Part shown: one piece after another, positions 14,699-35,846 of the stretch
How the letters are laid out: each line of letters begins with the position of its first letter
Numbering within the stretch: position 1 is the stretch's first letter
From: an uncultured Alphaproteobacteria bacterium
GTDB taxonomy: Bacteria; Pseudomonadota; Alphaproteobacteria; RF32; CAG-239
Direction: 5' to 3'
NCBI GenBank assembly: GCA_944390315.1
Contig: CALXPO010000011.1
Span: 1-64,000, forward strand
DNA: 64,000 nt
Notes under the pieces: model-generated
What the model saw: the letters and a program-made list of their open reading frames with translations, nothing else
What the model was told of the DNA's origin: nothing
The model's database searches: none
Translations under genes and position numbers: made by a program

Positions 14699-15970
14699 AT
14701 GATTAATATTTATCATAAATTTTTAATGGTAACATTGGGCACAATATTAGGCTTAACCTTAACGGCTTGCAAAACGCCCGCGCCACAGCCGGAACCCGTT
14801 GAAGTTAATCCGAAAACAGCCGCAACCTTAATCGATTTGCAGGATCCTAATATGATCCGAACACCTAAAGGTGCCAGCTCTCTTGACCTGGAAACGCCTT
14901 TAAGATGTCAGGTCAACTGGAAAACTCAAGAAATGATTACGGCACTGCCCTATAATTTAAAAGCTTTTAATTTGGTAAAAAACGGTATTAACAATCCTTT
15001 GCCCAGATATGAGGTAACAGGTTTTTCATTTAAAACCATGCCGGCAGAAAAAGCCTTACTCAAACTTTTGAAAGAAGCAGATATTCGCTTAGTGGCAAAA
15101 GATGCTCCTTATACCAGTATCTCTGCCGAAAATCTGCGTGGCGAACTTTCCGAAGTTGTTAAAATGATTACCGATGCGGCAGAAATCTATTATAGCTACA
15201 ATTCCGAGACCAAAACCATGACTATCGGTCGCAAAGCTAATTTTACTCTCTATGTACCAAAATCAAGACCTATTATTCTCGCTTTGCTTGATGTTATGCG
15301 CGGAGCCGGTATTACAAGTGTCACAACGGATTGGTCTGATTACTCCATTACTTTTGACGCAGATTTTGAACTGAAAACAAAAATTCAGGACTTAATAGAC
15401 TACTTTGAAGAAAATCCTGTTCTAATTGCTTATGATGTCAGCATTTTTACCATCTATCCTTATAACGAAACTCAAGATATAGAATGGCAAAAATTGCTAA
15501 ATATATTTGATTTCGGAACTATAAAAACTGCTAAAACCGGTGTTATCGGACGAGTATTAACAACATCCGATGACTTAAACTTTAGTACCTTACAAAGATT
15601 TTTATCCGGTCAAGCAAGAGTTGTTAAAGCAGCCGAAGGAAAATTTGTTGTTCCTAATTTGTGGCTGGCACGCTTTGATATCGGAAAATGTGCCGCTCGA
15701 AAATCTCATGAAGCACAGATTTCTTTGTTGGCAAGATCTTCCTTAATGCCGCAAAATCGTATCTTTTCGGACATTACACTTGAAGGTACAGACGGTCAAA
15801 TTACTCAATTTAATATCCGCAGCAAACTGGGCGAAAATTTTGTAATTATCGGTATCCCAAATGAGATTTTCGGAATCACTAAACCTAAATCAGAGACAAT
15901 TGTCTTTATGGTGCCGCGTATCATTCGTACTCTCAAAAAACAAGTATCTGAAACTGATAATGCACAATAA
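14699..15970 (+). CDS. Secretin-like outer-membrane lipoprotein
   Basis: This 423-residue protein starts with a lipoprotein signal (LTLTAC, Cys at about 24). Residues of about 105-175 resemble the secretin N0/STN domain (FSFKTMPAEKALLKLLKEA and the next strand-helix unit), followed by an N1-like unit. The end (about 385-415) resembles the secretin core C-terminus (ETIVFMVPRIIRTL, compare the usual LxIFITPRII). The central beta-barrel region is shorter than in true secretins, so it may form a reduced or degenerate ring or a periplasmic collar. A second, more typical secretin is encoded at 47388-49007. Being in this group suggests an outer-membrane part associated with the secretion system; this is inference. 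Confidence 0.65.
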   Translation: MINIYHKFLMVTLGTILGLTLTACKTPAPQPEPVEVNPKTAATLIDLQDPNMIRTPKGASSLDLETPLRCQVNWKTQEMITALPYNLKAFNLVKNGINNPLPRYEVTGFSFKTMPAEKALLKLLKEADIRLVAKDAPYTSISAENLRGELSEVVKMITDAAEIYYSYNSETKTMTIGRKANFTLYVPKSRPIILALLDVMRGAGITSVTTDWSDYSITFDADFELKTKIQDLIDYFEENPVLIAYDVSIFTIYPYNETQDIEWQKLLNIFDFGTIKTAKTGVIGRVLTTSDDLNFSTLQRFLSGQARVVKAAEGKFVVPNLWLARFDIGKCAARKSHEAQISLLARSSLMPQNRIFSDITLEGTDGQITQFNIRSKLGENFVIIGIPNEIFGITKPKSETIVFMVPRIIRTLKKQVSETDNAQ

Positions 15971-18713: not shown

Positions 18714-19682
18714 TTAGGTTACTTCGGTAACAGCACGCAAGTTACCATCACGATTTATTTGAACCACTCTTAGCTTATGGTGCATTTCTTCAATTGTTTT
18801 CTCTCTGTCCATAGTCGGATAGGTATGTAATATACGATCCATAAATGCCTCATAAGCAGCCGTTGAACTTTCCGCGTGAATTGTTGCCAGACAGTTATCA
18901 TGGCCTGATCCCATTAATTCCCATAAGGCTCCGGCGTTGCTTGTTGAAATTTCGCCTCCGATAATCGCGTCCGGCGTAAAACGTACAACCAAGTCAATGA
19001 TTTTTGCATAGTCAAACTGGTTGGTCTGTTCTGTACGAGACATCACGATATGGGTGCGATTGGGATGCGGTACGATCAGTTCGCGCGTATCTTCTATTGT
19101 AATTATTCTTTTGTGAATATCCAAAATTTTGAGCAAATTGTTTAGAAATGTCGTTTTACCTGTTGATGTCGCACCACTGACTAATATATGGTCTCCTCTT
19201 TTTATACTTAGCAAGAGCCTTTCATAGGGATCTTCAGGATCCTTAATTGACTTTAACGGATTTATTTGGTGCAACTTTTCACCTTGTTTTAATCCATAGT
19301 CACCAAGTCCAAAAGCCACATCGTCGCTATGTACACGAATGGTTAAGGCGACACCTCCGGTCAAGTCATTTTCATCATACATAACGTTTTTTCCACAAAT
19401 GGCGGAAAAACGGTGTTCTCCGGGAATCGTCGCATAGACAACCGGGCTTCCTGCTATCGGATCAAAAGGAATTTCATAAGTATTGGCTACAATATATAAC
19501 AAATCCGTTAGATATTCTTTTGTTAGCTTCTCATCCTTATACATTACCCATGGATAAGCACGTTTGCCACGTAACCGCAACCATACCTGTTCGGATCTAT
19601 TAATTGCTACCTCTTCTATATTTTCTTGGTTATACCAATATGAAAGCGGACGCAAAACGGATTCTAATACTTCAAAACTCAT
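18714..19682 (-). CDS. virB11: VirB11-type secretion ATPase
   Basis: VirB11 ATPases form cytoplasmic hexamers that power type IV secretion together with VirB4. This 322-residue protein has a Walker A motif (GATSTGKTT, residues 170-178), the Asp-box region TIEDTREL followed by HPNRTH, a Walker B-like strand (PDAIIGGEI, 237-245) and the His-box region (GSGHDNCLATIHA). The length is normal for the family. AAGGAG precedes the ATG and the VirB10 C-terminal gene ends 10 bases upstream. It is the last gene of the minus-strand operon. The order B8-B7-B8-B9-B10-B11 supports VirB11 over PilT or GspE. Confidence 0.93.
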   Translation of the reverse strand: MSFEVLESVLRPLSYWYNQENIEEVAINRSEQVWLRLRGKRAYPWVMYKDEKLTKEYLTDLLYIVANTYEIPFDPIAGSPVVYATIPGEHRFSAICGKNVMYDENDLTGGVALTIRVHSDDVAFGLGDYGLKQGEKLHQINPLKSIKDPEDPYERLLLSIKRGDHILVSGATSTGKTTFLNNLLKILDIHKRIITIEDTRELIVPHPNRTHIVMSRTEQTNQFDYAKIIDLVVRFTPDAIIGGEISTSNAGALWELMGSGHDNCLATIHAESSTAAYEAFMDRILHTYPTMDREKTIEEMHHKLRVVQINRDGNLRAVTEVT

Positions 19683-19691
19683 TTAATCTCC

Positions 19692-22600
19692 TTAAAATAA
19701 TTGTGGTACACCGCTACCAGAGCTTGAAGAACCGGATGATGACGCCGGCGGAGCATAACTACCACTGCTCGGCGGCGGAGGAGGTGTTGCTCCTACCGTT
19801 GAAGCGGGCGCTCTGCCCGATTGCTTTTTATCTTCAATTAATACCGGTTGAGCTTCTGTTTTCTCGGATTCGTAGACAACTTCGGAAGAAACATCACCAC
19901 TTGTTCCACCCGCTTGTTTAATACGACGTTCTGCCGCCTGAGTAGCAATTCTGTCTTGTGCTTCTTTATCATCAATCAAGACATCTTTTCTCTTCATATT
20001 TGTTGAAACATCCATATCTCTATCAACCGTTCTTAACCAGAGGTCAACCTTTGGATAAACAATAATACGTGTACCGGCAGGGACATAGGTTAAAGCACGA
20101 ATATTGGTCTTATCTGCCAAAATCATTTCAAATATCTGATTCATTTGGTCAATGAAATTCTGCCGTGCATCATTGGCCGCTTGCTGACGCGATGTCTCTG
20201 TTTCCATTGACCCTTCTTCTTCATCCGTAGCCATCATGTAGCTGGTAGCACTGGTAAGAAGAGTCGTAATTAACGGCATTCCGTATTTCTTGCCCAGTTG
20301 TTGGTCAACATATCCGAGTGCGCCACCGCGACCTTGGGCATCTCCGGTTTCACCTTGGAAGGTAAACAATACACCGTCAGGACGAATTAGACGTTGCCAT
20401 ACAATCGTAATACGGGCAGATTCTGAAGATGTTTCTGTTCCGCCGCTGGTCGCTCCTCCCAGTTCACCCATCAATCTACTACCTGCCGGAATTACAATAT
20501 TTCTACCATCTTCCGCATAAACATTGCGTTCTACAAATGCTGTAATCGGAACAGGATTTTGAGTATCAATCGAACGCGCTATAACGGCAGGAATCGGCTT
20601 GTCTGCAAGTATCATCTCACTCATATCAACTCGCCATGAAGATATAACTTTATCAATACCCTGCTCTTCCCAGTCTTTTTGGTAACCGTCAAAGGCTTCT
20701 TTGCGAATATTAGAGCTTATTTTTCCGACATACATCCCTTTGCGGCGCTCATTTTGAGCTGCTTGCAAAGCTGCAGATCTTTGCGGATCATACCGTTCTC
20801 CGGGACCAAAGCCTCCTCCGGGTCCAAGATTTCCGGCTCCGGTGCCTGTTCCGTATGCTCCACCTTGACCAAAGGTTCCTGCCGGAACAAACATTTCTCC
20901 CGTATCCGATTTTTTGGCCGCTTCTTCTATTCCTATCAGGGATCCTTCTTTATCAACAACTAAACCATCCGGAAGCAACTTGCCGATAACATTTCCTCTT
21001 TTATCAACGACGTTGCCATCCTCAAGAATATCGCCAAGATATTCGCCGTCAGGGGTTAGCGCTATGTTAAGCGAACGTTTGTACTGTCCGACATCTGCTA
21101 CCGTTCTTGCCCCAACTTCCGGTATGTCGCTCGGTTTATAAGTTTCCGGTTTTTGGTACCAATCCATACGAATATTACCTATGACATTGCCGTCTAAACC
21201 GATGGCTGTACCGTCTTTATCTAACTGACCTATAATATTTCCTTTGGCATCAACAATATCTGTCTTATTTCCTTTTTCATCAACATAGCCGATAATATTG
21301 CCATTTTGATCATAAACAGCGCGCATGCTATCTGTTTCAGTTGTTTTTTCGGAAACAAGAATACCTTCATCCTTTTCTGCTTCGGGTGCTTCATAAAATT
21401 GTAAAGGACGAGCCGTGGCTATAACTTTGCCATTATTATCCGTAATTTCACCTTTCTTACCCAAACTACCAACATATTCATTGTTAGAATTAATAACTTT
21501 TCCATCTAACTGCAACTCTCCGATAATCGAGTTAAGGTTATCTCGAATATGAAAATCTCTGTTGCCTCGACCTATAACTTTCTGTGAGCTGTCTACCAAA
21601 AAGCCTTTTGTTAATCCACCCAGATTTTGATTATTTAACGACAATATTTGACCATCCGGCAAGATGTAACCTATAACAAAATTGTTGTTATTATAAATAT
21701 ACATGTCATACAGAGCATAGCCAATTTTATTTTCTCCGGAAAGTACATTTCCATCAAAATCAACCACACCTATATTTTCACCTTTTTCATTTATCACTTC
21801 GGCTTTATCGTTAATTGTACCTATCAAATGGTTATTTTCGTCAAATGCAAAACGATATTGAAACAAAATTCCCGTAGGTAACCCGCTCTTTGAGCTAACT
21901 GAATCGTCCGGACGAATGTAGCCGACAACACTATTTTGCGAATTAACAACATTGCCGTCAAGCGTTGAGCGACCGATAATAACCCCGTTAAAATTCATGA
22001 CCGGTTTTGTTTCAATAACTTTACCGATAAGGGCTTTTTTGCTATCAAACATTCTTCCTCTTTGGTCTACACACCCCAAATTTTCATTTGCATAATTGAG
22101 CACTCTACCCGAAGATGACACAATACCTATTGCATTGCCGCCGTAGTCAATCACAACACCCGGCTTTACGGCATAGCCTATTATGGCGTTATTAACCGAA
22201 AACGCCTGACCGTTTGCCAACAATTTACCCATGTTGACTTCTCGATAATTGCGTATATCGCCTTGTCCTGTTGCCACACCGACAAATTCGCATTGTTCGT
22301 TGATAATCGGTGCATAAGAAACTGCTTCACCTATCGCCATACCGCCATTGTCAAAAACAATACCGTCGGCACTTACCTTGCCCTCAATTGTTGATTTTGT
22401 GTCATACACCAATCCTGCATGATTGATATAGCCTAAATAACGACCTTGGAATCCTATTGCGATTTCTTGTTTACCCGCCTTACCTATGCTGGGCATTAAA
22501 GAGGCCGGATTGCTTAAATCAGAGACAACCGCATCATCCGGTAATATTTTAGCAATCTTTTTCAGACCTTTATCCAACAGCATATTTCCATCAGCTATCA

Positions 22601-24110
22601 AACCTAAACTATTGCCGCGATAATCCACAGCATAGCCGGCATTAATATTTTTACCGAGGATGGTATTTTTATCATCAACACTATATCCGTATTGTGTCAG
22701 TTTTCCATTGACCGGAGCATTATTATTTACAAGTTCTCCGTTCGGATATATCAGAGCAATAGTTTCACCGCTTGAATTATATACGGCTCCGAGAGACAAT
22801 AAATTACCGTCTATCCCGCCTTCCGCATCATAAACATAACCAAACGGAGATATTATTTTCTTTACTTCTCCCAAACTAAATGCCGAGCTAATGCCATTTA
22901 CACCTAATACTTGATTTAATGAATTGACGATTAATTTAGCCTCAAACGTCATACCTATATTACGACCATTGTAATCTGATACTCGGTTACCATAAGTTGT
23001 TCCTATGGGTGTTCCGCTCAATAAGATAGCCTGACCATTTTTAAGGGCATGGGCTTTAAGCGTACCGCGATAATCAAAAACCGGTCCCGATACCGTAAGT
23101 TTACCGATTACGATTCCATCTGTTCCCAAAATTGTTTGTCTCGGACCCATCGTTCCTACAAAATTTCTGGCCTGAGCTATTCTTCCTTCAGGCATAATTC
23201 TGCCGATATATTTTCCGCTTATATCTGTTGCCGTAGATGCAATATCTGCCATATATCCTATGACATTGCCTTTTGAATCTGCAATATTACCGTCAATTTG
23301 CAAGTGCCCGACAACTTTGTTTGATTTAACAACATCACCGTTATATGTTACAAATCCCACATATTTTCCGTCGTTAGAAAAAGCATACCCCGATTTGACA
23401 ATTCGACCTATGATTTTATTCTGCGCATCATAAGCAAACCCATTGGCATGGATTTGTCCGATGATTTTACCATCAAAATCTGTCACTTTACCGCCGGGGG
23501 ATATGCTGCCGACAAACTTTCCGGAAGCATCAATTATCATTTTTGACGAAATCAATCTGCCGTCAAGCACAAAATCATTACCGACACGGCGGTAAGCATA
23601 GCCGTCCGGTGAAATAAATCCTATATTTTGTCCTTGAAGATTAGAATATAAGCCATCGCCGGTTAAGCGTCCGACTGTTTCTCCGCTATCTGAATAAACA
23701 AGTCCCGGAAAAAGTACAGCCCCCAATACGGAAAAACTCTCATCGACAACCAAACCATTAGGCAATACCTTGCCGACAATTTTTCCCGTCGCCAAACGTA
23801 CTGTTCCGTCGTTATTTACTTTTCCTAACAGGCGGTTATCATTGCCAATTGCTATTCCTTTCGGAACAACGCCCCCGATTAAAACTCCATCAGAATCGAC
23901 TATCAAACTGTCTGCCGTAATATTACCGATTAATTGATTTTCAAAACTTACGACTTTTCCATCGGGGATAACTTTACCTATTAAATCTCCGTTAAAATCA
24001 ATAGCGGTAATTTCCTGTGCCGATGCAACAGATACGCTGAAACTCAGAAAGCAACCGATCAACGATGTTTTCATTGAGAATGTCAATATTTTGCCCAAAT
24101 CAAGTTTCAA
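19692..24110 (-). CDS. virB10: VirB10 C-terminal half: exported repeat protein with VirB10/TrbI domain
   Basis: VirB10 spans the envelope and forms part of the outer-membrane core complex. This 1472-residue protein begins with a Sec signal (ending ASA-Q, about residue 32) and has no inner-membrane anchor. Residues of about 34-1065 are tandem 17-18-residue units of the form G-x-x-I-G-x-V-x-x-x-G-x-V-x-D. The VirB10/TrbI beta-barrel domain occupies about 1160-1370 (IPAVIARSID, VIPAGSRLMGELGG, VPAGTRIIVYPKVDLWLR). A Pro/Ser-rich tail follows. The start is a TTG at 24110, supported by GGAGG 8 bases before it inside the end of the upstream gene, so translation is probably coupled. Ordinary VirB10 has a cytoplasmic N-terminus and one anchor; that part is encoded by the neighbouring gene. 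Confidence 0.88.
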   Translation of the reverse strand: MKLDLGKILTFSMKTSLIGCFLSFSVSVASAQEITAIDFNGDLIGKVIPDGKVVSFENQLIGNITADSLIVDSDGVLIGGVVPKGIAIGNDNRLLGKVNNDGTVRLATGKIVGKVLPNGLVVDESFSVLGAVLFPGLVYSDSGETVGRLTGDGLYSNLQGQNIGFISPDGYAYRRVGNDFVLDGRLISSKMIIDASGKFVGSISPGGKVTDFDGKIIGQIHANGFAYDAQNKIIGRIVKSGYAFSNDGKYVGFVTYNGDVVKSNKVVGHLQIDGNIADSKGNVIGYMADIASTATDISGKYIGRIMPEGRIAQARNFVGTMGPRQTILGTDGIVIGKLTVSGPVFDYRGTLKAHALKNGQAILLSGTPIGTTYGNRVSDYNGRNIGMTFEAKLIVNSLNQVLGVNGISSAFSLGEVKKIISPFGYVYDAEGGIDGNLLSLGAVYNSSGETIALIYPNGELVNNNAPVNGKLTQYGYSVDDKNTILGKNINAGYAVDYRGNSLGLIADGNMLLDKGLKKIAKILPDDAVVSDLSNPASLMPSIGKAGKQEIAIGFQGRYLGYINHAGLVYDTKSTIEGKVSADGIVFDNGGMAIGEAVSYAPIINEQCEFVGVATGQGDIRNYREVNMGKLLANGQAFSVNNAIIGYAVKPGVVIDYGGNAIGIVSSSGRVLNYANENLGCVDQRGRMFDSKKALIGKVIETKPVMNFNGVIIGRSTLDGNVVNSQNSVVGYIRPDDSVSSKSGLPTGILFQYRFAFDENNHLIGTINDKAEVINEKGENIGVVDFDGNVLSGENKIGYALYDMYIYNNNNFVIGYILPDGQILSLNNQNLGGLTKGFLVDSSQKVIGRGNRDFHIRDNLNSIIGELQLDGKVINSNNEYVGSLGKKGEITDNNGKVIATARPLQFYEAPEAEKDEGILVSEKTTETDSMRAVYDQNGNIIGYVDEKGNKTDIVDAKGNIIGQLDKDGTAIGLDGNVIGNIRMDWYQKPETYKPSDIPEVGARTVADVGQYKRSLNIALTPDGEYLGDILEDGNVVDKRGNVIGKLLPDGLVVDKEGSLIGIEEAAKKSDTGEMFVPAGTFGQGGAYGTGTGAGNLGPGGGFGPGERYDPQRSAALQAAQNERRKGMYVGKISSNIRKEAFDGYQKDWEEQGIDKVISSWRVDMSEMILADKPIPAVIARSIDTQNPVPITAFVERNVYAEDGRNIVIPAGSRLMGELGGATSGGTETSSESARITIVWQRLIRPDGVLFTFQGETGDAQGRGGALGYVDQQLGKKYGMPLITTLLTSATSYMMATDEEEGSMETETSRQQAANDARQNFIDQMNQIFEMILADKTNIRALTYVPAGTRIIVYPKVDLWLRTVDRDMDVSTNMKRKDVLIDDKEAQDRIATQAAERRIKQAGGTSGDVSSEVVYESEKTEAQPVLIEDKKQSGRAPASTVGATPPPPPSSGSYAPPASSSGSSSSGSGVPQLF
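20925..24010 (-). repeat. Coding tandem repeats in the exported VirB10 protein
   Basis: About 1,000 residues of degenerate 17-18-residue units. Sequence drift is greater here than in the neighbouring gene, where near-identical 159-base blocks persist. Confidence 0.8.
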
Positions 24111-24112
24111 TG

Positions 24113-27100
24113 CTAGTTCCTCCGATTTTTAGCGACTTCTTGCAAAGCATATCCGGAAACTTTTTTATCCAAATTTATAAAAGAACCGTTGCTCTTTAGA
24201 TATCCTATAATTTTTCCCTCTCGACTAACGACCGTACCATCGGCACGCAATCGTCCGGCATATTGTCCGTCGTTACTCAGAATCGTTGTACCTATTTTAT
24301 ATATTCTGCCGAGAACAGCATCATTATTATCAACAGCTAAGTCTGAGGACATACTGCGACCTATGACTTCTCCTCCCGAGCTGGTTACAATTCCACCAAA
24401 ATTAACATAACCAACGACCTTATCTTCATCGTTGATGACAATATCTCCGTCCAAAACTTCTCCTATCAGTTTGCCGGAATTATTAATAACACTTCCGTCT
24501 GACAAAACTCGCCCGATATAAATATTAAGGACATCTATTACACTTCCGTCAGGCGTAACCGCTCCGATAACCTTTCCGCTATAATCGATAACGGCTCCTC
24601 TTCTAAGAAGACTCAAATTCTTATCTGTCGAACCACCGGGTAATATGGCCGTAATATTATTATTTTTGAGATCAATTACATCTCCCAAAGAATTAACTCG
24701 TCCCTTATAATTGCCCAAAATATCAATGACTATGTTCTCCGGAATAATTTCTCCGATGACGCTGCCGTCTTTATCGACAATCTTGCCGTCTGAGGTACTG
24801 CGACCGTTCATCTTGCCTTCTAAGTCAATAACTCGTCCATCTGACAGACCATAGCCCAAAAAGGCTCCATCATATCCTACGCCGGCACCGCGTTTTACAA
24901 CAGCTCCTTTATATTCGCCGTTTTCATTGAAAAATATACCTTTTGCATCAACATAACCAAGTCTTTCGCCGAATCTGTTAACCGCCTTGCCGTTATAATC
25001 CGTTTGACCGATTATTTTACCATCAAAATCAGTAATTAGTCCGCCGGAAAGTCTGTTACCCAGAATATGGTTATAAAAACTCATGCCGTCACTATACATT
25101 TTTCCCATAGATACACCTTTACTATCATAGACATATCCGTCCGGAAATAAATGACCGATAACTTTTCCTGCGGAATCTAGTATCGTGCTTTTTTCAGGTA
25201 AAGTTACACCTATAATTTTATTATTTTCATCAACAACGACATTATGAGCCAAAAGTCTTCCGGCAGATTGCCCTTTTAAGGGAACTCTTCCGCTTTCATT
25301 AACCATATTCAAAAATTTGCCTTCCATATCATAGGCATAAGTATTTTTTAGAATATGACCGACATAACCGCCATTTTTATCAAAGACGTCTCCGTATGTA
25401 CCGACGCAACCTACTGCTTGGCCTTGCGGAGAAAATACCAACCCATTTGAACTAACCGATCCCAAAAAATTGCCGTCGTATGATACAGCTATACCCGACC
25501 GCGACACACCGCCGACAACTTCTCCTCTTTCATTCAAAACCGTACCATCCGGATTAACACAGCCGACATAACTGCCTCCGCTATCGCGAACTATACCATC
25601 AGTATCTACTTCGCCTATCATGGTACATGTATTGTCAAAAACAGGTCCCGGAGTGACAACTTCGCCTATATAAGCTCCGCTGTCATCAACGACAACTCCG
25701 TCGGCAGTCAATTTGTATCCCGTTTCTTCGTTGGACTTTCTAATGACGCCGTCTTTTTCCAAATAGCCTATATTTTTACAGCCCAAACCAACGACAAGTC
25801 CTCCACGTATCATTCGGGCAACAATTTTTGAACCAGATGGATTTTTAACCAAACCATTCGCTAATATTCTGCCAACAATTTGCTTATTATCATTTTCTAC
25901 CGTGCCGTTTGACTTCACTTCGCCCAAAATCGTTCCTTGAGGTGTTACAGGTATCATCTGTTCTTGTATCAAACGTCCCAATATTGTCTGCGTACTGTTA
26001 ACAATATTTCCGTTTTCATCTACATAACCGACTATATTACCATCTTTATCATAAACTTCATTATTTTTGCCGACATAGCCGCTTATCTTACCGTACTTAT
26101 CTAAAACGATTTGCGAAAAACCGGCAACCTCTCCCAACGGATTACCATCTAAGTCAACTATGGTTCCGTCAGGCAACATCTTACCGATAACATTGCCGTT
26201 AAAATCAACAACATTACCGTTCTCGTCAACATAGCCGATAACATTGCCATCTTTATCATATGCCAATTTGCGATTAACTGTTCCTGCTCGACCTATAACA
26301 TTACCGTTTTCGTCAACAATGGTGCCGTCTTCCAACATTTTACCGATAATATTGCCATCAAAATCAACAACATTACCATTTTCGTCGATATAACCGATAA
26401 TGTTGCCGTCTTTATCATATGCCAAACGCTGATTTGCCGGACCTGCATGACCTATAACATTACCATTAGCATCAACAATGGTGCCGTCTTCTCTGACTTT
26501 TCCGATAACATTTCCTGCAAAATCCACAACATTTCCGTTTTCATCTATATAACCGATAATGTTGCCGTCTTTGTCATATGCCAAACGGCGACCGCTGGCA
26601 TCTACTTTACCGATAATATTACCTTGTCCATCTATCAAACTGCCGTCCGGTAACAATTCTCCTATCTTTTTGCCGTCTGCACCTATGACGCTGCCGTCAT
26701 CTTCGACATAGCCCATAACCTTTCCGTCTTTGTTATACGCCAAAAGATTTCCCGTCGTACCGGCTGACCCCATTTCTTCACCGCGCATATTTACCAACGT
26801 TCCGTCCGGACGACTGCGACCAATCGTATTTCCGTCAAAATCTATGACATCACCTTTTTCATCAACATAACCTATAACATTTCCGTCCTTGTTATAAGCT
26901 AAGCGACGACGAACACTCTTAGCATCCAAATTTTTATCGGCAATCACATTGCCGTTTTCATCAACACGACCGACGACATCTCCATTTGCATCAACAACAG
27001 ATCCATCCGGCATAACTACCCCGATGATATTACCATCGCTATCAACAGCAACTTGACCTGATTTCGTTACATGACCGATTACATTACCGTTGGCATCGAT

Positions 27101-28180
27101 AACTTCGCCTTTTTCGTTAACACGTCCAATAACATTACCATTTAAATCAACAACGGTTCCGTCCGGCATAACACGACCGATGATATTACCATTTTCATCA
27201 TATACATACCCCATGTCAACGGCTTTGCCTATGGCGTTTCCGTCATTATCGACAACGGTTCCGTCCGGCAACATTCGACCGTTTACATTGCCGTTAACAT
27301 CAACCATGCTGCCATCGGGATTAATATAACCAATAACGTTATTATTATCATCATAAACCAGTTTGCGATTATTGGCGACCCCTATAATGTTGCCATCCGC
27401 ATCAACAGCTAGACCATTTTCGTTAATACGACCGATAATATTGCCGTTTTCGTCATAAATGTAACCATCTTCATCAGCATAGCCGATAAGTTTTCCGTCA
27501 GGACCGATAACGGCGCGTTGCATTTTTTTAGCCGTCGACGAAGTTGTTCCGCCGCCATTGCCTACACCGGGTATATTTTCACAAAAATTACAATCTTCTT
27601 TGTTTATCGCATTTCCATAGACAGGAACTTTTTCCGATTTTGCATTTCCTTGTGAAACATTGCTTTCGTGCCAAGATACAATAAAATTATTTTGAACATT
27701 GCCCGCAACAACAGGAACCCAGCTCATGGTAATATCGCAGGTTTCCTTGCCTCTTAAGAGTTTTCCGCTGCAATTATCGTTAAATTCAAAACCATCAAAA
27801 GGAGCTTCTGCTAACTGAACGGATATAATCATAACAGATGTTTTTCCGTTTGTGCCTATGGTCAATACATTTTTCGCATCAGTCCCCAGAACGACCTGAC
27901 CTAATGCTATCGGATTAGGTGTTGTCGTAATCGGTATTTCCCCGTCATCTACCGTGCTAAATTCTATACTTTCTTGTACGGGTTCGACACTGGGCACATT
28001 TAAGGCATCATCATTGTCCGTAAATACAGGTTCTTCATACTCTTCTATTGGCTCATCGCTTGAAAAAAGCAGATATAATCCAAACAAAAAGACTAAAAAT
28101 GAAGTAACACCAACCGCAAGAATTATGCGGTTGGTTTTTTTGATATAACTTTCAGAATGTGTTAAGACTTCTTTGCTCAT
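24113..28180 (-). CDS. VirB10/DotG N-terminal half: membrane-anchored repeat protein
   Basis: This 1355-residue protein has a short cytoplasmic N-terminus and one membrane segment (about residues 20-42), as in VirB10 or DotG. An Ig-like domain of the ASH/MSP type follows (about 85-200: LTIGTNGKTSVMI, then SCS/CD-type Cys residues in NDNCSGKLLRGKETC). From about residue 225 to near the end it consists of 17-18-residue repeats (DGNIIGYIDENGNVVD and variants), in places organised as 53-residue blocks. There is no VirB10 beta-barrel; that domain is in the next gene. The ATG at 28180 overlaps the stop of virB9 (ATGA), which supports this start over a more upstream one. I infer that this and the next product together replace one VirB10/DotG. 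Confidence 0.82.
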   Translation of the reverse strand: MSKEVLTHSESYIKKTNRIILAVGVTSFLVFLFGLYLLFSSDEPIEEYEEPVFTDNDDALNVPSVEPVQESIEFSTVDDGEIPITTTPNPIALGQVVLGTDAKNVLTIGTNGKTSVMIISVQLAEAPFDGFEFNDNCSGKLLRGKETCDITMSWVPVVAGNVQNNFIVSWHESNVSQGNAKSEKVPVYGNAINKEDCNFCENIPGVGNGGGTTSSTAKKMQRAVIGPDGKLIGYADEDGYIYDENGNIIGRINENGLAVDADGNIIGVANNRKLVYDDNNNVIGYINPDGSMVDVNGNVNGRMLPDGTVVDNDGNAIGKAVDMGYVYDENGNIIGRVMPDGTVVDLNGNVIGRVNEKGEVIDANGNVIGHVTKSGQVAVDSDGNIIGVVMPDGSVVDANGDVVGRVDENGNVIADKNLDAKSVRRRLAYNKDGNVIGYVDEKGDVIDFDGNTIGRSRPDGTLVNMRGEEMGSAGTTGNLLAYNKDGKVMGYVEDDGSVIGADGKKIGELLPDGSLIDGQGNIIGKVDASGRRLAYDKDGNIIGYIDENGNVVDFAGNVIGKVREDGTIVDANGNVIGHAGPANQRLAYDKDGNIIGYIDENGNVVDFDGNIIGKMLEDGTIVDENGNVIGRAGTVNRKLAYDKDGNVIGYVDENGNVVDFNGNVIGKMLPDGTIVDLDGNPLGEVAGFSQIVLDKYGKISGYVGKNNEVYDKDGNIVGYVDENGNIVNSTQTILGRLIQEQMIPVTPQGTILGEVKSNGTVENDNKQIVGRILANGLVKNPSGSKIVARMIRGGLVVGLGCKNIGYLEKDGVIRKSNEETGYKLTADGVVVDDSGAYIGEVVTPGPVFDNTCTMIGEVDTDGIVRDSGGSYVGCVNPDGTVLNERGEVVGGVSRSGIAVSYDGNFLGSVSSNGLVFSPQGQAVGCVGTYGDVFDKNGGYVGHILKNTYAYDMEGKFLNMVNESGRVPLKGQSAGRLLAHNVVVDENNKIIGVTLPEKSTILDSAGKVIGHLFPDGYVYDSKGVSMGKMYSDGMSFYNHILGNRLSGGLITDFDGKIIGQTDYNGKAVNRFGERLGYVDAKGIFFNENGEYKGAVVKRGAGVGYDGAFLGYGLSDGRVIDLEGKMNGRSTSDGKIVDKDGSVIGEIIPENIVIDILGNYKGRVNSLGDVIDLKNNNITAILPGGSTDKNLSLLRRGAVIDYSGKVIGAVTPDGSVIDVLNIYIGRVLSDGSVINNSGKLIGEVLDGDIVINDEDKVVGYVNFGGIVTSSGGEVIGRSMSSDLAVDNNDAVLGRIYKIGTTILSNDGQYAGRLRADGTVVSREGKIIGYLKSNGSFINLDKKVSGYALQEVAKNRRN
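24140..27490 (-). repeat. Coding tandem repeats with a 159-bp block in VirB10 N-terminal gene
   Basis: The repeat unit is 17-18 residues. Between about 26250 and 26575 the DNA repeats with an exact 159-base period (53 residues, three units); the element RLAYDKDG marks each block. The low divergence of these blocks indicates recent duplication. Confidence 0.88.
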
Positions 28181-29817
28181 TGTGTTCTGACCACGCTGCA
28201 AAATACTCCGTTTCTACCCAATTTACTGCATACACTGTCACCTTCGTCCAGCGTTTCTACAGGTCCTATCCGCAAGTGGAAAAGCTCTTTGCCTTGTCCA
28301 TCTGCCGGTGCATCAACCGAGAAGAACGGATCATAGTTCTTTAAGATTTTGGAATATTTGGATGACAAATTATCCCACAAAGATTCAAGATTTTCGACAT
28401 CGGCATCTGTTCCAAGTTCTATCGAAATGTTAGATCCGCTGTCGGCAAAACCCGAGCCATAGCGATATTGGCTTGCCAAATTGCTTGCCGCCGCATCAAA
28501 TTCTTGTGTATTTTGTATTCTATGCATTTTAGAGTAATCAAAATCTCCGCCTTGGGAAGTAACATCTCCGCCAAACATAGAATCGGCTCCATATCGAATG
28601 GTTACCCCGCCGTTACCGCCGTTATTATCTGAGCCGTAACCATTGTTGGAAGACGAAGCACCATACATGCCGCCCGTCGAATTTTCATTACCGGCGCCAT
28701 TACCGCCAAAACCGTCAGGATAATCGGCTCCGCCGCTCTTACCTTGCTTTCTGTCTGGCAACGCAGGAGGAACATCCCATTCTTTATCCGTAATATCATC
28801 GGCATAGCTGATGTTATCCAGCCCAACTTCATCGGAACGACGCAATTTTAAGCATACAATACGTTTTCCGTTACGCAAGACCATATCGCCTATTGCTTCA
28901 ACAATAATCAGTCTATTGTTTGGACCTTTTGTTCTGAAGCCAACAGGAACTTCTACACGCTCTACTATCAATGTTACAATCGGACGTTGGGTCATATTCA
29001 ATGATTTTTCACCTAAATCAATATAGGTAAAAATATCATCTCGCCATACTCTTTCCGGAGCTATGACTACATCGTCCGGATTGGGTACATAGACCTCTAT
29101 ATCAAAACGAAATTGCGACGGATCAAGAGGAATACTCTTTATCCAATCATTTTTTTGAAATCTTTTTGTAAAAGTTGAATCAACTGATTTACCGCCATTG
29201 CCATAATATTTGCTGGCATTGACTCGTCCTGAAGACGATCCGCCGGATCCAAGCGTGCCTGCACCTCCTGCGCCGTCAATAACATCTATATCAACAATTG
29301 CATTTGTTAAACGTTCCGTATTTACGCCTTCACTGCGAACATAGAAAACATAGCGATTACCAGAACGTCCAAAGACGATAATATTTGTATCAACACCGAC
29401 ATTTGCGCCTTTGCGAGGATAGAGAAGCAAAGTATTAGGACCAGATATTTGGCCGTCAAAAGTAGCATTATCACCGATATATATATCTTCTACCATTTCC
29501 CATTCCGGAAAATTAAGCAATGTAATCATGCCTTCTCTTAAACGAAGCGGCAAGACCAAATCCGGAGACCAATAATACTTGGAATAGGCCGGCTTACTTT
29601 GTCCTTCTCCCAAGTTTTGCAGTGGATCAAGCCATGCACTTTGCATCATGCCAAGTGAATTGAAGCCCGCATATCCCATATCCATCGGCTGATATTGACC
29701 TTGTGACTGATCTGCGTTCTGATCCATGCTGTTGATGGTTGCTTGAGCATAAGTTTCTGAAGCAAACATCAAACCTATCAAACTTAATAAACTTATTTTC
29801 AAAGACTTTGCTAACAT
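28177..29817 (-). CDS. virB9: VirB9-type T4SS outer-membrane core protein with SPOR-like C-terminus
   Basis: VirB9 proteins form the periplasmic/outer-membrane ring with VirB7 and VirB10. The product (546 residues) has a signal peptide (ending TYA-Q, about 25). A VirB9/CagX N-terminal domain covers about 88-165 (REGMITLLNFPEWEMVEDIY, then PNTLLLYP and RYVFYVRS), and the C-terminal part of the family lies at about 240-350. A Gly/Asn-rich linker of about 100 residues follows. The last 50 residues (LFHLRIGPVETLDEGDSVC and on to VFCSVVRTQ) resemble a SPOR peptidoglycan-binding domain. I chose the ATG at 29817 because AAGGTGG lies 8 bases upstream; an earlier GTG falls inside that site. Ordinary VirB9 has about 280 residues. 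Confidence 0.87.
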   Translation of the reverse strand: MLAKSLKISLLSLIGLMFASETYAQATINSMDQNADQSQGQYQPMDMGYAGFNSLGMMQSAWLDPLQNLGEGQSKPAYSKYYWSPDLVLPLRLREGMITLLNFPEWEMVEDIYIGDNATFDGQISGPNTLLLYPRKGANVGVDTNIIVFGRSGNRYVFYVRSEGVNTERLTNAIVDIDVIDGAGGAGTLGSGGSSSGRVNASKYYGNGGKSVDSTFTKRFQKNDWIKSIPLDPSQFRFDIEVYVPNPDDVVIAPERVWRDDIFTYIDLGEKSLNMTQRPIVTLIVERVEVPVGFRTKGPNNRLIIVEAIGDMVLRNGKRIVCLKLRRSDEVGLDNISYADDITDKEWDVPPALPDRKQGKSGGADYPDGFGGNGAGNENSTGGMYGASSSNNGYGSDNNGGNGGVTIRYGADSMFGGDVTSQGGDFDYSKMHRIQNTQEFDAAASNLASQYRYGSGFADSGSNISIELGTDADVENLESLWDNLSSKYSKILKNYDPFFSVDAPADGQGKELFHLRIGPVETLDEGDSVCSKLGRNGVFCSVVRTQ

Positions 29818-29830
29818 TAATCTATCCACC

Positions 29831-30562
29831 TTATTTTACTTTATTATAAGTCAGAGAGTACTGATAAACCGTAAAGCCGACCGGATTTTTTAGTCTTCCT
29901 TTATATTTTACTCTCTTACTGCGGTATCCAACTTTTAAACTTGCCGTCCAATAATTAATCTCCGGTGTCTTAGAATCCGGATACATATCTCGAGTTTCGT
30001 ATTCAACTTGCCATATTCCAGACCCCAACTCGTTAACCGTCATAATACGTACATCTCGTATCATTTGTCTGGTCCGAATCAGTTGAAGAGCTCGATTGGC
30101 CGTATTATCTATAAAATCTTTATAAACCGACGGACTTGACATTTCTTCTATCATACCGCCGGGCATCCAACGTGCCTCAACTTCCGGAATATCTCGATTA
30201 AAAGAACTCCGAAGTAATACATATTCTCTTACAAAAACTTCGGTTATCTCTTTTTCGTCTTCCATATCTCGGTTAACCGCTTGGATATTATAAACCTGCT
30301 CCTCTTTATCCTGAAAAGTCAGTAAAAACGGTTCTACGCGATAGAGGGGAATAACTTGAGCTATTGCCAACAACAGAATAATATTACAGCACAAACTGAT
30401 TGCTGTAATAATTGCAAACGCACGTGCCGTCCACAAATAGCGTTTTTCCGCAATATTTGCCACAAAAGCATCTTGCGAAGAAGATGAGTTTGCACGACTT
30501 CGTTGTTTGTTCCCGGCTAAAAGACGCTGATTTTGATTATTTACCCCCAATTGCTGTACCAT
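29831..30562 (-). CDS. virB8: VirB8-type inner-membrane protein, paralogue 2
   Basis: VirB8 is a bitopic scaffold protein of type IV secretion. This 243-residue protein has a polar cytoplasmic N-terminus, one membrane segment (about 48-72) and a periplasmic domain that ends with the family signature KNPVGFTVYQYSLTY. It is 28% or so identical by eye to the protein at 30881-31639, mainly in the motifs VEPFL, REYVLxR and NPxGFTV. It lies between virB7-like and virB9, 13 bases from the upstream stop to its start. Confidence 0.88.
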   Translation of the reverse strand: MVQQLGVNNQNQRLLAGNKQRSRANSSSSQDAFVANIAEKRYLWTARAFAIITAISLCCNIILLLAIAQVIPLYRVEPFLLTFQDKEEQVYNIQAVNRDMEDEKEITEVFVREYVLLRSSFNRDIPEVEARWMPGGMIEEMSSPSVYKDFIDNTANRALQLIRTRQMIRDVRIMTVNELGSGIWQVEYETRDMYPDSKTPEINYWTASLKVGYRSKRVKYKGRLKNPVGFTVYQYSLTYNKVK

Positions 30563-30574
30563 CTTTAGAACCTT

Positions 30575-30763
30575 TTAGATTGTTTCTATAAACCAATCAG
30601 GAAGAGTCTTTGGTAATTCTACTTGCATGCATGCGCAAGGAGAAAGTTTGAGTTCATCTGATGCGCGACCAATACCAACCGGCTCCGGTTCATAGTACGA
30701 ACCAAAAAGACCGCACGCCGATAATAACATCAGAATCAAGACTAACATTAAATTTTTATACAT
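30575..30763 (-). CDS. virB7: VirB7-like small lipoprotein
   Basis: The 62-residue product has a lipoprotein signal (LMLLSAC, Cys at about 17) and a short mature part with two more Cys (LSPCACM). Size, lipobox and position between two virB8 genes and virB9 fit VirB7, which stabilises VirB9 at the outer membrane, partly by a disulfide in Agrobacterium. AGAGGA lies 7 bases before the ATG at 30763, which excludes the upstream in-frame start. Short lipoproteins diverge fast, so the assignment rests mostly on position. Confidence 0.7.
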   Translation of the reverse strand: MYKNLMLVLILMLLSACGLFGSYYEPEPVGIGRASDELKLSPCACMQVELPKTLPDWFIETI

Positions 30764-30880
30764 TAGAATATCCTCTCTCATGATAAGATATATTGAAGTT
30801 AAACTTTTTTTTTACAAAAGTCTACCTTTTTTAATGTGTTCAGCACTTAATTGGGTTATAAAACAAAATGGTTAACAAAT

Positions 30881-31639
30881 TTACAAGAATTCAACTTCAC
30901 TTTGAGAATATCTTGTAACCGTAAAACCAAGCGGATTTAACAAACGTTTTCCCATAAACTCTCGACCTGGGATAAAGTATGATGTAATTGAGGCCGTCCA
31001 ATAATGAACTCTTAAAAAAAGTGCTCCCGTTTCATTGTTGCGGCGCCGTGCAGAAACTTCATAAGTCTTAAAATCGACCTTCCATACCGGACTTTTTTCA
31101 CCGCCGACACGCCCTATTGATATAATCTCCACTTCTTGAGATGTTTGGTTATCCGTAATCCCTTTCCATATTTTTTCTCTGTATTTATTAAATTCACTAA
31201 ATACTTGCGGCGAGGACAGATAATTAACTATACCGCCCGGATACCAGCGAACCATCATCTCTCGCTCATCATTGATGATTGTGTTGCGATAAAGAACATA
31301 TTGACGAACAAACGTTTCCATAAGCATCTTTTTTGATGCCATATCATACGCTATCGGCTCATAACGAACAATGTCGTCCGACGAACTTTGATCTATGATT
31401 AAAAATGGCTCAACCGTGACCTGAGGGGCTAAACTAAATAGCGATAATGACGATGCCAAAAAAAGAAGTAACGAAGCAACTGTCGTCACAATAAAAAAAC
31501 GCGACAACCACAAGTAATATGTCATTTTGGCACTGACAACTTCTTTTTCTCTTGTTCCAATAAATTTATATTCTTTGCCATTTTTATCGGCAATTGCCAA
31601 TATCTTGCTGCCTTCTAACATATTACTTAGTTTACTCAT
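30881..31639 (-). CDS. virB8: VirB8-type inner-membrane protein, paralogue 1
   Basis: This 252-residue bitopic protein has one membrane segment (about 45-70), then the VirB8 periplasmic NTF2-like domain with EPFLIID, RQYVLYRNTI, RWYPGGIV and the C-terminal NPLGFTVTRYS. Two different VirB8 proteins in one operon suggest a heteromeric scaffold, or one for each of two functions. It is 19 bases downstream of the giant secreted protein gene, and 100 bases separate it from virB7-like. Confidence 0.88.
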   Translation of the reverse strand: MSKLSNMLEGSKILAIADKNGKEYKFIGTREKEVVSAKMTYYLWLSRFFIVTTVASLLLFLASSLSLFSLAPQVTVEPFLIIDQSSSDDIVRYEPIAYDMASKKMLMETFVRQYVLYRNTIINDEREMMVRWYPGGIVNYLSSPQVFSEFNKYREKIWKGITDNQTSQEVEIISIGRVGGEKSPVWKVDFKTYEVSARRRNNETGALFLRVHYWTASITSYFIPGREFMGKRLLNPLGFTVTRYSQSEVEFL

Positions 31640-31658: not shown

Positions 31659-34600
31659 CTAATAGGCCATACACATCGGAATTTCATAATTATTTATTTC
31701 ATCCTGTAGTCCAGATAGCGACTGATCTTGCGACTTAGACATAACTTCCTGGTTTGCTCTCTCGCTTATGATGGACTCTTCAAGACTACTGCCCGCTTCT
31801 GTCGAATTGTTCATATTTATCAAAGCGTCATAATCTTGAACCAAAGCTGCCCGCGTATTATTAGCTTTTGCATAACGCTCGCTTACAACCGCATCCGTGG
31901 CATTCAAACCCGATATTTGTGAATGGGCCTGACCGACAAGACTATTTTTATATTCCAACAACTTAGTTCGAATATAATTATACTCATCATCATTAGCAAG
32001 ATTAAAATTAGCACTAACCTTAAATCCCATTGCCGATAAATATTCTTTTATCGTATTTCGGGCATCATCAATACTTAGGGCAAGCTCCTCGACACTTTTT
32101 CTTATATTGTTTTCTTTATCTACAAAATGTAAGAAATTTCCTATTTGATTATTGGCATACATTGCCTTTTGATATACGTTATCTCTCACTTCATAATCGA
32201 AATCATCTCCGTTGGCATCATCTTCCAACTCAAGCATTCTCTCATATACATCATACGCTGTTTCGTTAAAACGAAGTTTTTGCCCACTGTAAGATAAAAG
32301 GGTACCAAGCTCGCTGGCCGTAACAGATGTCGCGGCTTCTTGCGTGCCGGCGCTTACACTCTTGTCTAATTCCAAATCCGTAACCGTATAATACAGCGTA
32401 CCTTTAAGTGATATATCCAGGCATGTCGGTATCTTTGAAGAACCGTTACGACTTATCAAATAGCGTCCGCTCGTTTGGCTCAAATCAACTTTTGAAGCCG
32501 CAACGTCTACCGTCTTATTTCCTATACGACAAGGATACAAAGTTCCCCTCATAAAGGATTTGCTCTCGCCTCCTTGCTCCAAAAGATTGCTTAAATCCAA
32601 ACCTTTTTCAACAAATGCATTTTCTGAAAGCATCTGCTTCCAAATATTCGGAATTTCTCCTCCGTATTCCAAAAAAGAATCTTTGCTGATGACACCATCT
32701 TGGGATTTTTTGATATTTCTATAATCCGTAGCATCAAAATGGACAATATCTCGCGGTGATGGATAATGCTCAAATTCAGGTGCCCGCGGAGCCTTAAAAT
32801 CTCTTTTCTTAGCTCCCAGTCCGACAAAATACTCAGTATCTGCACTGTTACAAGAAACTTGACCACATATGTCTTGGGTAATGGCCGAATTTAAGGCACT
32901 TGACATAAGAGAAACAATCGCCGATGTACTGCCCCCTCCGATAGCAAGCATGGCCGAAGAAATAAACTGCGTTTTGGGCATTTCTTTTAAGGACTCTATC
33001 AGCTCTTTATGACGACGAACAACTACGGCATTGTTGCGAGTCTCATATAACCCGTCACCTAAATTATATAGATCATTACGGGCTTCATCTATCAGTTTTA
33101 TTGCATATTCTTTGGCATCAGAAACCAAGCCGTCTGCTTTAGAAGCAACTCCGCTTAAACCTGTCGCATGTATATTCAGTTTGCTGATAAGACTTGCTAA
33201 AGTCGGCGCAGATGAGGAATTGGACGCAGTTTCCATCTTTTGTGCGTATTCCGCCTCAATAACGGCCTTGCGATTTATGTAGTCTTCTTCTATTGAAGCG
33301 ATTCGTTTTTCTATCGCTTCAAGTTTTTGATTTATAGAATCGCGCTCTTCTTCATATGTTTTGACTTCTAATCTTAAATTATTGGCTTTTCTGGTATTTT
33401 CTAATTCTTGCTTACTTCCGGATGAAAAATCTTTTCCGGCTGCAGCATATAAGGTCGAATTTGATGTATCGCCTCTGCTGTTCATCAGTTTTATGGTGTT
33501 ATACGAACTGGCTACTTGCGCTTTACCTGTTTCCGTGTCCGAATCTGCTTGACTCACCTCGTCGTTTAGGCTGCTTATTTTAGAAGCCGTCGTATCAAGT
33601 TGCGATAGCAATTTTTCTTTTTGGGCCTTATATGTTTTAAGCGCTGCGGTTTCCGCACTATCAACTTTTGCTAAAGCTGATTTTTTAGCATCTACCATGG
33701 TCGTATCGGCAGAGCCAGCCGATTTTTGGTTAGAAAGATACGACGATATACGATTCAAACCTGATTGTGTCGAATTTTTCAGTGTACCGTCTTCCCTGTC
33801 ATCATTTATAATTTCTGCTATACGCAACGCTACTTCCGTTAAATCCAATTGACGAATATAATTTTTCATATTCTCGTATTTTCCGTCAATATATTGGTTA
33901 TAAAAGCTCTTTTGATCCTGCCATAACGGATAAGGATTTTCTGCACGACCGTACAAAGAATCAGACGCATATTGATCTTCGGCTAATATCTTTGCTGCCT
34001 GTGCCCCTATTTGCCATACAATCAGCTCAACTTCTCTTGTTGATTCCGAAAAACTTTCTTCTTGACTTGGAGCGGCCAACGCTGATGAAGAATCAATTTT
34101 GGAGACTTGCTCTTGTATTTTATCTATCTCACTTACACTGGTATTACCCGCGTTATACCCTAGGTCTATCGTTGAAAAAGAATCCGTATCCAATCCGGCA
34201 CTTTTGTCCGCATTGGCAACCTGAAAGGCTGATATAGCCCAACCGGAAAGTCCCGTTCTGTTGTCATAATCCGTCGGATCCGTCGGTATACGGGTTGAAC
34301 CATACCACACTTTTTCCGGTTGTGCGTAATGACGCCCCAAATATTGTATTACGCATTTATCCGAATCGGCCACGGCTTGTTGTGCTTTCTCATGTAATTT
34401 TTTATACATTTCATACTGTTGAAACAGCTTTCTGTATTCGGGAAGCTGTTTTACCAAATTATGCACTTCAATCGCACTATTAAGATATTTTTGAGCTTCC
34501 GAAATATGCTGCAACGCTTCAAATTGCTCTTTACTGCCGCTCATTAAAGGTTGAGGCGTAGGTGCTGCCGGAACAGAAAAAGATACCTTTCCCTTTGACA

Positions 34601-35846
34601 CAACCTTTTTATTATCATCTTTATCCTCAGCCGCAGTAAGTATATCTTTTTCCTCTAAAGTCTGTTTTTGACTTTGCGTTGCAGAAACTTGACGTAAAGG
34701 AACTTGCTTGGTTGATACAAAAGGCTGAAATTCTTTTGTTTGAACAGTTGCCTCCTCTTCATCCGGTTTAGATATAATACCAATATCTCCGTTTTGTACT
34801 CTGGCGACCGCTCCGGCTTTCGTTACCGTAGCACTTGCCGATGGAGCTTTAGCGACCGTACCGGCTTTCGTTGCCGTAGCACTTGCCGATGGAGCTTTAG
34901 CGATTGCTCCGGCTTTCGTTACCGTAGCACTTGCCGATGGAGCTTTAGCGACCGCTCCGGCTTTCGTTGCCGTAGCACTTGCCGATGGGGCTTTTGCGAC
35001 CGCTCCGACTTTCGTTGCCGTAGCACTTGTCGATGGGGCTTTAGCAGCCGAATTTGACATACCTGCACTTACGTATTGTGCAAAAGCTATTTTACTATGA
35101 AAATATTGGGATGATGATAATGTATCCGATGATGTATCTTCACTATCTTTTTCGTAGGGCGCCGGTAAAATTGTTTTTCTATATATCGCTCTGGCAACAT
35201 AATATTGAGAATAAAGCGCCATGACTTCTTCTGTAATTTTTAGAACATCATTAAACTTTTTATGGGCTAGATACAAATTATAGTAATTTCCATTTTCATC
35301 TTCGGAAGAAACAGAACCCGCGCTGCCTCCTGAGGGAGCAACGGCATCTTTTGAAAACGTATCTATTTCAGAACGCAAATTATTAAGCTCTTCCTCCAAT
35401 CTTTGTGAAGCCGTTTGTATTTCTATCAGTGTATCATAATAAAATTCGGCAGCTTCGTTCTCATAAAGTTTATTTATGCGTGGGTCATCTGAAGGGTATT
35501 GTAAAAACAATTCGTTAAATGCGGCTTGGACAGCCGTCGGATCATATATATCCACGGAACTTTCGGCAAATTTTCTGGTACCGGGGACTTTTTCGGCAGC
35601 ATTTTTTCTTTTTCCGAAATAAGAACCTATACTTGCTTTTAGAGCTGTAACCTTTTCTTTTACGAATTTTATAGCTTCGTCGGCTTTTGTTTGTATTTGC
35701 TCAAAAATTGGGGTAATAGATGCCGCGGCATCACCTAAAAAGTCAAAAGAAACTCCGGCCACCAACTGAGCTTGAGAAGGTGACGCACCAAACAAAATTC
35801 CGGAAATTAACAGAACACTAAGGTAATATTTTATTTTTTTATTCAT
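31659..35846 (-). CDS. Giant exported coiled-coil protein in the VirB5 position
   Basis: The 1395-residue product has a signal peptide (ending SQA-Q, about 27) and is largely alpha-helical. Coiled-coil regions occur at about 75-190, 440-500 and 690-900. Residues of about 265-350 contain five tandem copies of a 16-residue repeat (AGAVAKAPSASATATK) that also occurs in the protein at 37727-39271. Several Cys appear in the C-terminal third (ITQDICGQVSC, LYPCRIG, PTCLDIS, IPMCMAY). I recognise no enzyme motif. It belongs to a run of four exported helical proteins between virB4 and virB8, where VirB5 minor pilins normally are; they may form a surface tip or adhesin. GGAGG precedes the ATG. Confidence 0.75.
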   Translation of the reverse strand: MNKKIKYYLSVLLISGILFGASPSQAQLVAGVSFDFLGDAAASITPIFEQIQTKADEAIKFVKEKVTALKASIGSYFGKRKNAAEKVPGTRKFAESSVDIYDPTAVQAAFNELFLQYPSDDPRINKLYENEAAEFYYDTLIEIQTASQRLEEELNNLRSEIDTFSKDAVAPSGGSAGSVSSEDENGNYYNLYLAHKKFNDVLKITEEVMALYSQYYVARAIYRKTILPAPYEKDSEDTSSDTLSSSQYFHSKIAFAQYVSAGMSNSAAKAPSTSATATKVGAVAKAPSASATATKAGAVAKAPSASATVTKAGAIAKAPSASATATKAGTVAKAPSASATVTKAGAVARVQNGDIGIISKPDEEEATVQTKEFQPFVSTKQVPLRQVSATQSQKQTLEEKDILTAAEDKDDNKKVVSKGKVSFSVPAAPTPQPLMSGSKEQFEALQHISEAQKYLNSAIEVHNLVKQLPEYRKLFQQYEMYKKLHEKAQQAVADSDKCVIQYLGRHYAQPEKVWYGSTRIPTDPTDYDNRTGLSGWAISAFQVANADKSAGLDTDSFSTIDLGYNAGNTSVSEIDKIQEQVSKIDSSSALAAPSQEESFSESTREVELIVWQIGAQAAKILAEDQYASDSLYGRAENPYPLWQDQKSFYNQYIDGKYENMKNYIRQLDLTEVALRIAEIINDDREDGTLKNSTQSGLNRISSYLSNQKSAGSADTTMVDAKKSALAKVDSAETAALKTYKAQKEKLLSQLDTTASKISSLNDEVSQADSDTETGKAQVASSYNTIKLMNSRGDTSNSTLYAAAGKDFSSGSKQELENTRKANNLRLEVKTYEEERDSINQKLEAIEKRIASIEEDYINRKAVIEAEYAQKMETASNSSSAPTLASLISKLNIHATGLSGVASKADGLVSDAKEYAIKLIDEARNDLYNLGDGLYETRNNAVVVRRHKELIESLKEMPKTQFISSAMLAIGGGSTSAIVSLMSSALNSAITQDICGQVSCNSADTEYFVGLGAKKRDFKAPRAPEFEHYPSPRDIVHFDATDYRNIKKSQDGVISKDSFLEYGGEIPNIWKQMLSENAFVEKGLDLSNLLEQGGESKSFMRGTLYPCRIGNKTVDVAASKVDLSQTSGRYLISRNGSSKIPTCLDISLKGTLYYTVTDLELDKSVSAGTQEAATSVTASELGTLLSYSGQKLRFNETAYDVYERMLELEDDANGDDFDYEVRDNVYQKAMYANNQIGNFLHFVDKENNIRKSVEELALSIDDARNTIKEYLSAMGFKVSANFNLANDDEYNYIRTKLLEYKNSLVGQAHSQISGLNATDAVVSERYAKANNTRAALVQDYDALINMNNSTEAGSSLEESIISERANQEVMSKSQDQSLSGLQDEINNYEIPMCMAY
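34800..35050 (-). repeat. 48-bp tandem coding repeat, five units
   Basis: In-frame units encode variants of AGAVAKAPSASATATK. The same unit is repeated in a neighbouring gene at about 38325-38665. Confidence 0.88.

Follow-up and report, generated by a model that had tools for sequence, protein, structure and literature searches.

The VirB10 of this bacterium is divided into two proteins, a membrane-anchored half and a Sec-exported half. This division is strongly supported and is not a frameshift; the split of VirB10 is real and old. Both genes lie in the window, the whole stretch of 64,000 nucleotides that was analysed, whose minus strand carries a VirB-type operon, as judged from the open reading frame list and from Pfam and NCBIfam profiles. 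The features on which the argument rests are the following.

29831-30562 and 30881-31639 (span 29831-31639), minus strand: two virB8-like genes (Pfam).
28177-29829, minus strand: virB9-like gene (CagX over the Pfam cut-off).
24113-28180, minus strand: anchored half of VirB10, 1,355 residues (open reading frame list, Pfam; aligned in 54 loci).
28067-28126, minus strand: N-terminal transmembrane anchor, after SYIKKTNR (hydropathy).
27683-27931, minus strand: ASH or choice-of-anchor-D-like domain with two invariant cysteines (profiles below cut-off).
24137-27550, minus strand: predicted 17-residue beta-hairpin repeats of the anchored half (Pfam, AlphaFold2, lag identity).
24116-24160, minus strand: C-terminal end of the anchored half, SGYALQEVAKNRRN, kept in 54 of 54 pairs and in 0 of 42 fused proteins.
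24108-24123, minus strand: junction, with GGAGG, stop and start in sequence.
19692-24110, minus strand: exported half of VirB10, 1,472 residues (open reading frame list, Pfam).
24018-24110, minus strand: Sec signal peptide, cleavage predicted between ASA and QEITAIDF (cleavage-type motif before the first repeat).
21411-24017, minus strand: predicted 17-residue beta-hairpin repeats of the exported half (AlphaFold2).
20736-20786, minus strand: predicted helix ahead of the barrel (AlphaFold2).
20034-20612, minus strand: TrbI/VirB10 C-terminal domain of the outer-membrane core (Pfam; ComB10 2bhv, E 4e-17).
18714-19682, minus strand: virB11-like ATPase gene (Pfam, NCBIfam).

Besides the pair, the operon contains two TrbC/VirB2-like genes, VirB4, two VirB8-like genes, one VirB9-like gene and VirB11. 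Several of its large proteins match no Pfam family over the cut-off. The plus strand carries two VirB6-like genes, of which one exceeds the Pfam cut-off and the other falls short of it. The order virB8-virB8-virB9-A-B-virB11, where A is the anchored and B the exported half, is found in the window and in relatives. The best model for the VirB11-like ATPase is VirB11 (TIGR02788, E 2.7e-42), at 144.9 bits under its cut-off of 249.95. A DotB-type ATPase, as in the Dot/Icm (type IVB) systems, is not indicated: its model (TIGR02524) reaches only 17 bits against 463.3 (E 0.0026). The VirB9-like protein (28177-29829) ends in a SPOR-like stretch (20.9 bits against a cut-off of 21) that might contact peptidoglycan. 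Two large operon proteins, at 31659-35846 and 37727-39271, have in common a tandem repeat of the KAPSASATATKAG type. A lipoprotein-like protein is encoded at 14699-15970; a Pfam search of it found nothing, and it may be secretin-N0-like, perhaps a large VirB7-like part.

The anchored half starts with the ATG at 28180, which overlaps the virB9 stop (ATGA); an alternative upstream start in the open reading frame list, the TTG at 28201, gives 1,362 residues. Its transmembrane segment is a constant feature, with 19-residue KD maxima of 2.48-3.27 across the anchors of 54 pairs. The ASH-like domain scores under cut-off in both collections (Pfam ASH, E 0.012; NCBIfam choice_anch_D, E 4.3e-5) and is followed by a repeat region of about 1,100 residues. 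A Pfam search of the anchored protein found no TrbI/VirB10 barrel, and a search of solved structures with it found none of ComB10, VirB10, TrwE and TraF. The exported half matches all four structures through its TrbI part. Pfam TrbI covers its residues 1167-1359 (E 2.2e-34; 119 bits against a cut-off of 35), and the NCBIfam VirB10 model gives 101.8 bits, below its cut-off of 220. A cleavage-type motif stands ahead of the first repeat in 53 of 54 exported halves by a rule-based reading, and in the remaining one the rule found no repeat start. The repeats of this half span about 870 residues and give way to a variable linker with a few further repeats. The helix predicted between linker and barrel has a position that fits the inner-layer, VirB9-binding helix of VirB10 in solved systems, as described in sections of PMC8486379 and PMC9259494. 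The inner-membrane anchor is absent from the barrel chain and is carried by the neighbouring protein in all 54 complete pairs. An earlier note, made from the DNA letters alone, had described one gene with an anchor and no barrel, the other with a signal peptide and a VirB10 barrel and no anchor, and the same repeat in both. The analysis bears out all three descriptions. The anchored half exceeds 2,000 residues through added repeats in four loci (L093, L095, L098 and L086, the last two with the anchored frame open at its start), and the exported half remains at 1,402-1,470 residues.

Separate stop and start signals lie at the junction. GGAGG (24123-24119) lies inside the last codons of the anchored half; its TAG stop (24115-24113) is followed two bases on by the TTG start of the exported half (24110-24108). 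All 54 pairs have a Shine-Dalgarno-like sequence and a start for the exported half, and this start lies within four bases of the anchor stop in 50 of them. The last four anchored-half residues may owe their conservation to the ribosome-binding site that lies in their codons. The two genes do not stand in one fixed frame relation: 10, 24 and 20 of the 54 pairs fall into the three frames, which argues against programmed frameshifting. A sequencing error, an assembly break or such a frameshift could mimic two proteins, and broken genes do occur: G351, of a fused family, is broken with a 4-base overlap, and an additional break occurs in both G122 and G038. Against this stand the 54 separate loci, the signal peptide and the ribosome-binding-site-like sequence that mark the second start, and the varying frame relation; the break in G351 has no signal peptide. 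We consider an artefact of this kind so improbable that it can be set aside. The frames, their coordinates and their separate start signals (ATGA overlap; GGAGG before TTG) are as the earlier note had read them, and its argument against a recent frameshift has gained force from the 54 pairs.

The split is conserved throughout the loci read in the order. A search with an alignment of 13 barrel domains was positive in 121 of 153 genomes; the loci of 64 of these 121 were fetched and read. They comprise 54 complete pairs, five incomplete pairs (three anchor frames open at the end of the fetched stretch or contig, two damaged or N-containing anchors) and five undecidable loci, in which the barrel frame runs off the contig or into N. 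None of the 64 has a fused anchor-barrel chain. A fused frame in close relatives, which the earlier note had named as the finding to look for, is thus absent from the loci read, and single chains were found only in other orders of the class. An apparent giant protein in G063, a frame of 25,213 residues, was rejected as a run of N. Among the 32 barrel-negative genomes of the order, 20 family members were searched again, and VirB4 is also missing in 13 of these. Of the seven that lack the barrel and keep VirB4, only G143 has an anchor, about 7 kb from the contig start. Both halves seem to travel together.

Single-chain relatives are found elsewhere in the class. There are 42 complete fused loci, of which 29 belong to one order (32 of 35 positive genomes fetched: 29 fused, the broken fused gene of G351, two open), 11 to a second (all 12 positive genomes fetched: 11 fused, one open), and one each to two further families. 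The fused chains measure 1,273-2,831 residues and consist of an N-terminal anchor, an ASH-like region, repeats and a barrel. In yet another order, G122 is split with a similar signal-peptide start; its genes lie on two contigs. The protein database gives a comparable picture among the best 120 of 1,040 relatives of the anchored protein, which fall into chains of 784-1,581 residues without TrbI versus 1,576-2,363 residues with TrbI, within lengths of 0.55 to 1.75 times the query. The earlier note had taken a single chain with both anchor and barrel as the rule for known VirB10 proteins, a premise that calls for a caveat. Among 11 other VirB10 loci of the class that were examined, eight (L040, L041, L042, L225, L226, L227, L275 and L276) have a lipobox-like signal after which hydropathy shows no further strong hydrophobic segment. 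Several of the eight have an ASH-like look, and the frame of L041 is open at its start. They are possible lipoprotein forms of VirB10, so that barrels lacking an inner-membrane anchor may be more widespread.

Joined end to end, the split pair matches three fused sets in collinear order (E 6e-285, 7e-260 and 3e-212). Two of these sets lack a 91-residue stretch at nearly the same place, A1309-B37 and A1319-B47, with anchor residues numbered from the TTG at 28201. The aligned path runs to anchor residue 1308 or 1318 and picks up again at exported residue 38 or 48, so that the missing stretch corresponds to the last 44-54 residues of the anchor, the signal peptide and a few additional residues. 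The fused protein L032 aligns across the junction, interrupted by a gap of just 13 residues, and the short L035 aligns to the anchor part only; in fused proteins the junction can be placed only to within some repeats. In a FastTree tree of barrel plus VirB11 (120 loci, 535 columns), one clade with support 0.985 holds 58 of the 60 split-labelled loci together with five undecidable loci. No clade holds all 42 fused loci without also including the split clade. Since the split loci form one clade, the split is most simply explained by one old fission of a fused ancestor.

Bflower, Bflower_2 and DUF3659 repeats are over the Pfam cut-offs in both proteins. Repeat-lag identity reaches 0.253 in the anchored and 0.163 in the exported half and is above chance, since 300 shuffles of each protein never exceeded 0.117 and 0.106, respectively. 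A spacing of 17 residues predominates; in the anchored half, 18 comes next. AlphaFold2 models of the single chains (anchored residues 163-1362, exported residues 31-1140) have mean pLDDT values of 80.7 and 86.4 and pTM values of 0.68 and 0.77. The anchored model is weaker in the regular N-terminal repeats and reaches about 90 over the last 600 residues. In the exported model, ten-residue block means lie at 85-97 over about 870 residues (first block 77), with low values past the main array. Beta-hairpins run to both tips in these models, with no capping helix or domain; a seven-residue disordered tail follows the anchored tip. Multi-repeat indels between near relatives measure three, six or nine units in 44 of 59 cases (26 of three, 14 of six, four of nine), the others being six of two, six of four, two of five and one of seven. 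Single-unit indels number 29, and 110 of the 198 indels in total fall into no class; longer indels have somewhat wider size classes, and the pairs compared are not independent. Invariant cysteine pairs of the anchored half are 51 residues apart (808/859 and 881/932). Together with the indels that favour multiples of three, they point to a unit of three repeats, and three repeats (about 51 residues) probably form one structural unit. The cysteine pair of the exported half (607/680) is not 51 apart, lag-51 identity is not above lag-34 identity in the conserved halves, and identity in the regular repeats of the anchor peaks at lag 53. RHS_repeat is also over the Pfam cut-off in the anchored half. 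Foldseek against Rhs proteins and teneurin gives a best E of 3.2e-45, yet TM-scores of 0.10 or less and an rmsd of about 30 A; local similarity is strong, and no global match to Rhs or teneurin shells was found.

The facing ends of the two halves are distinctive. The motif GYxLxxxAxNRR(N/D) stands at the very last residue of the anchored protein, and (E/D)(I/M)xA(I/L/V)(D/N)(F/Y) stands near the start of the exported protein; each is present in 54 of 54 pairs and in none of the 42 fused proteins. In windows of 54 residues over 54 loci, the first 54 residues of the exported half after the signal peptide rank second of the 844 windows of the repeat region. The last 54 residues of the anchored half rank 103 of 1,104 (139 without the last five residues) and form the third best separate conservation peak of its repeats; the two best windows (residues 263-378) adjoin the ASH-like domain, not the end. 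Equivalent windows in fused proteins are average (ranks 684 and 1,026 of 1,440) or low (1,520 and 1,474 of 1,600), which suggests that the ends came under constraint once they became ends. Conservation at both facing ends favours end-to-end docking over side-by-side packing. Packing of the two arrays along a long overlap, the example given in the earlier note, would fit the kind of repeat common to both halves, and stretches of about 600 residues in the anchored and about 860 in the exported half that show no length variation in the 54-locus alignment could represent one long interface. The best windows of the exported half, however, weaken away from the facing end (3.51, 3.37, 3.17 and 2.99 bits), and fused relatives carry both parts in succession; we regard such packing as unlikely.

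The account that we favour, with modest confidence, is that one ancient fission divided VirB10 near a repeat boundary and that the repeat ends facing each other dock in the periplasm and so reunite the halves. Translation of both genes would be coupled. The anchored half would insert into the inner membrane, and the exported half would cross by Sec and join VirB9 in the outer-membrane core through its C-terminal part. The uncapped last hairpin of the anchored half would then meet the uncapped first hairpin of the exported half. Docking of the tips would restore the ancestral rod without a covalent bond, and the repeats would join both membranes. The uncapped beta edges that face each other in the models suggest mutual capping, and the facing ends could also bind VirB9, VirB8 or peptidoglycan rather than each other. 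A direct bridge might be missing altogether if the exported half were a self-sufficient part of the outer-membrane core and the anchored half a separate inner-membrane scaffold, linked by VirB8, VirB9 or others. The eight lipoprotein-like loci of other families, whose barrels lack a clear inner-membrane anchor, would agree with this, as would solved maps in which links between parts of the VirB10 or DotG chain are unresolved, according to portions of PMC8617172 and PMC8486379. The two genes are nevertheless adjacent in the 54 complete pairs and apparently translationally coupled, the pair aligns with one chain of ancestral type, and an anchor without a barrel occurs only in G143 among the 20 members searched again. 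We judge two unbridged halves to be rather improbable. A tentative extension of the docking proposal is that VirB10 forms a two-part rod with a reversible joint: the hairpin ends would cap each other, the membrane parts could differ in copy number or disengage, and covalent continuity would be dispensable for a type IV secretion system. Copy-number mismatches between layers are described in parts of the accounts of solved systems (PMC8486379, PMC9259494), and a jointed VirB10, if true, would be a simple way to tolerate them.

What is new here is the division of VirB10 in two; the VirB10/TrbI family itself is already known. VirB10 is described as spanning both membranes in a passage of PMC8617172. 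A natural and widely conserved split makes it testable whether one continuous chain is needed between the inner-membrane motors and the outer-membrane gate. The pair shares with VirB10, TrbI and ComB10 (PF03743) the C-terminal TrbI domain, the place between virB9 and virB11 and the predicted helix before the barrel. It differs in having anchor and barrel on separate proteins, in its giant repeats and in a score too low for the cut-off of the NCBIfam VirB10 model. The fused repeat-VirB10 proteins of other alphaproteobacterial orders likewise have an anchor, an ASH-like region, repeats and a barrel, but they have neither end motif, and the alignment of the two large fused groups reveals no internal signal peptide. 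CagY of Helicobacter pylori is likewise a VirB10 ortholog enlarged by repeats; it is one protein with surface-exposed repeats, as an excerpt of PMC5954226 describes it, and the likeness drawn here is one of description. DotG of Dot/Icm is a VirB10 homolog with parts in the periplasmic ring and dome (sections of PMC8486379), but it is one protein, and the system here looks VirB-type. Through the repeats, the beta-flower sequence families, described only recently, gain a setting in a machine whose position in the envelope is known. The repeats here share with beta-flower proteins (PF21784, PF21785) a repeat sequence over the Pfam cut-offs. Those proteins form small closed 4-, 5- or 6-fold barrels, as set out in part of PMC10584680, whereas the repeats of the divided VirB10 are predicted to form long hairpin arrays, probably with a three-repeat unit.
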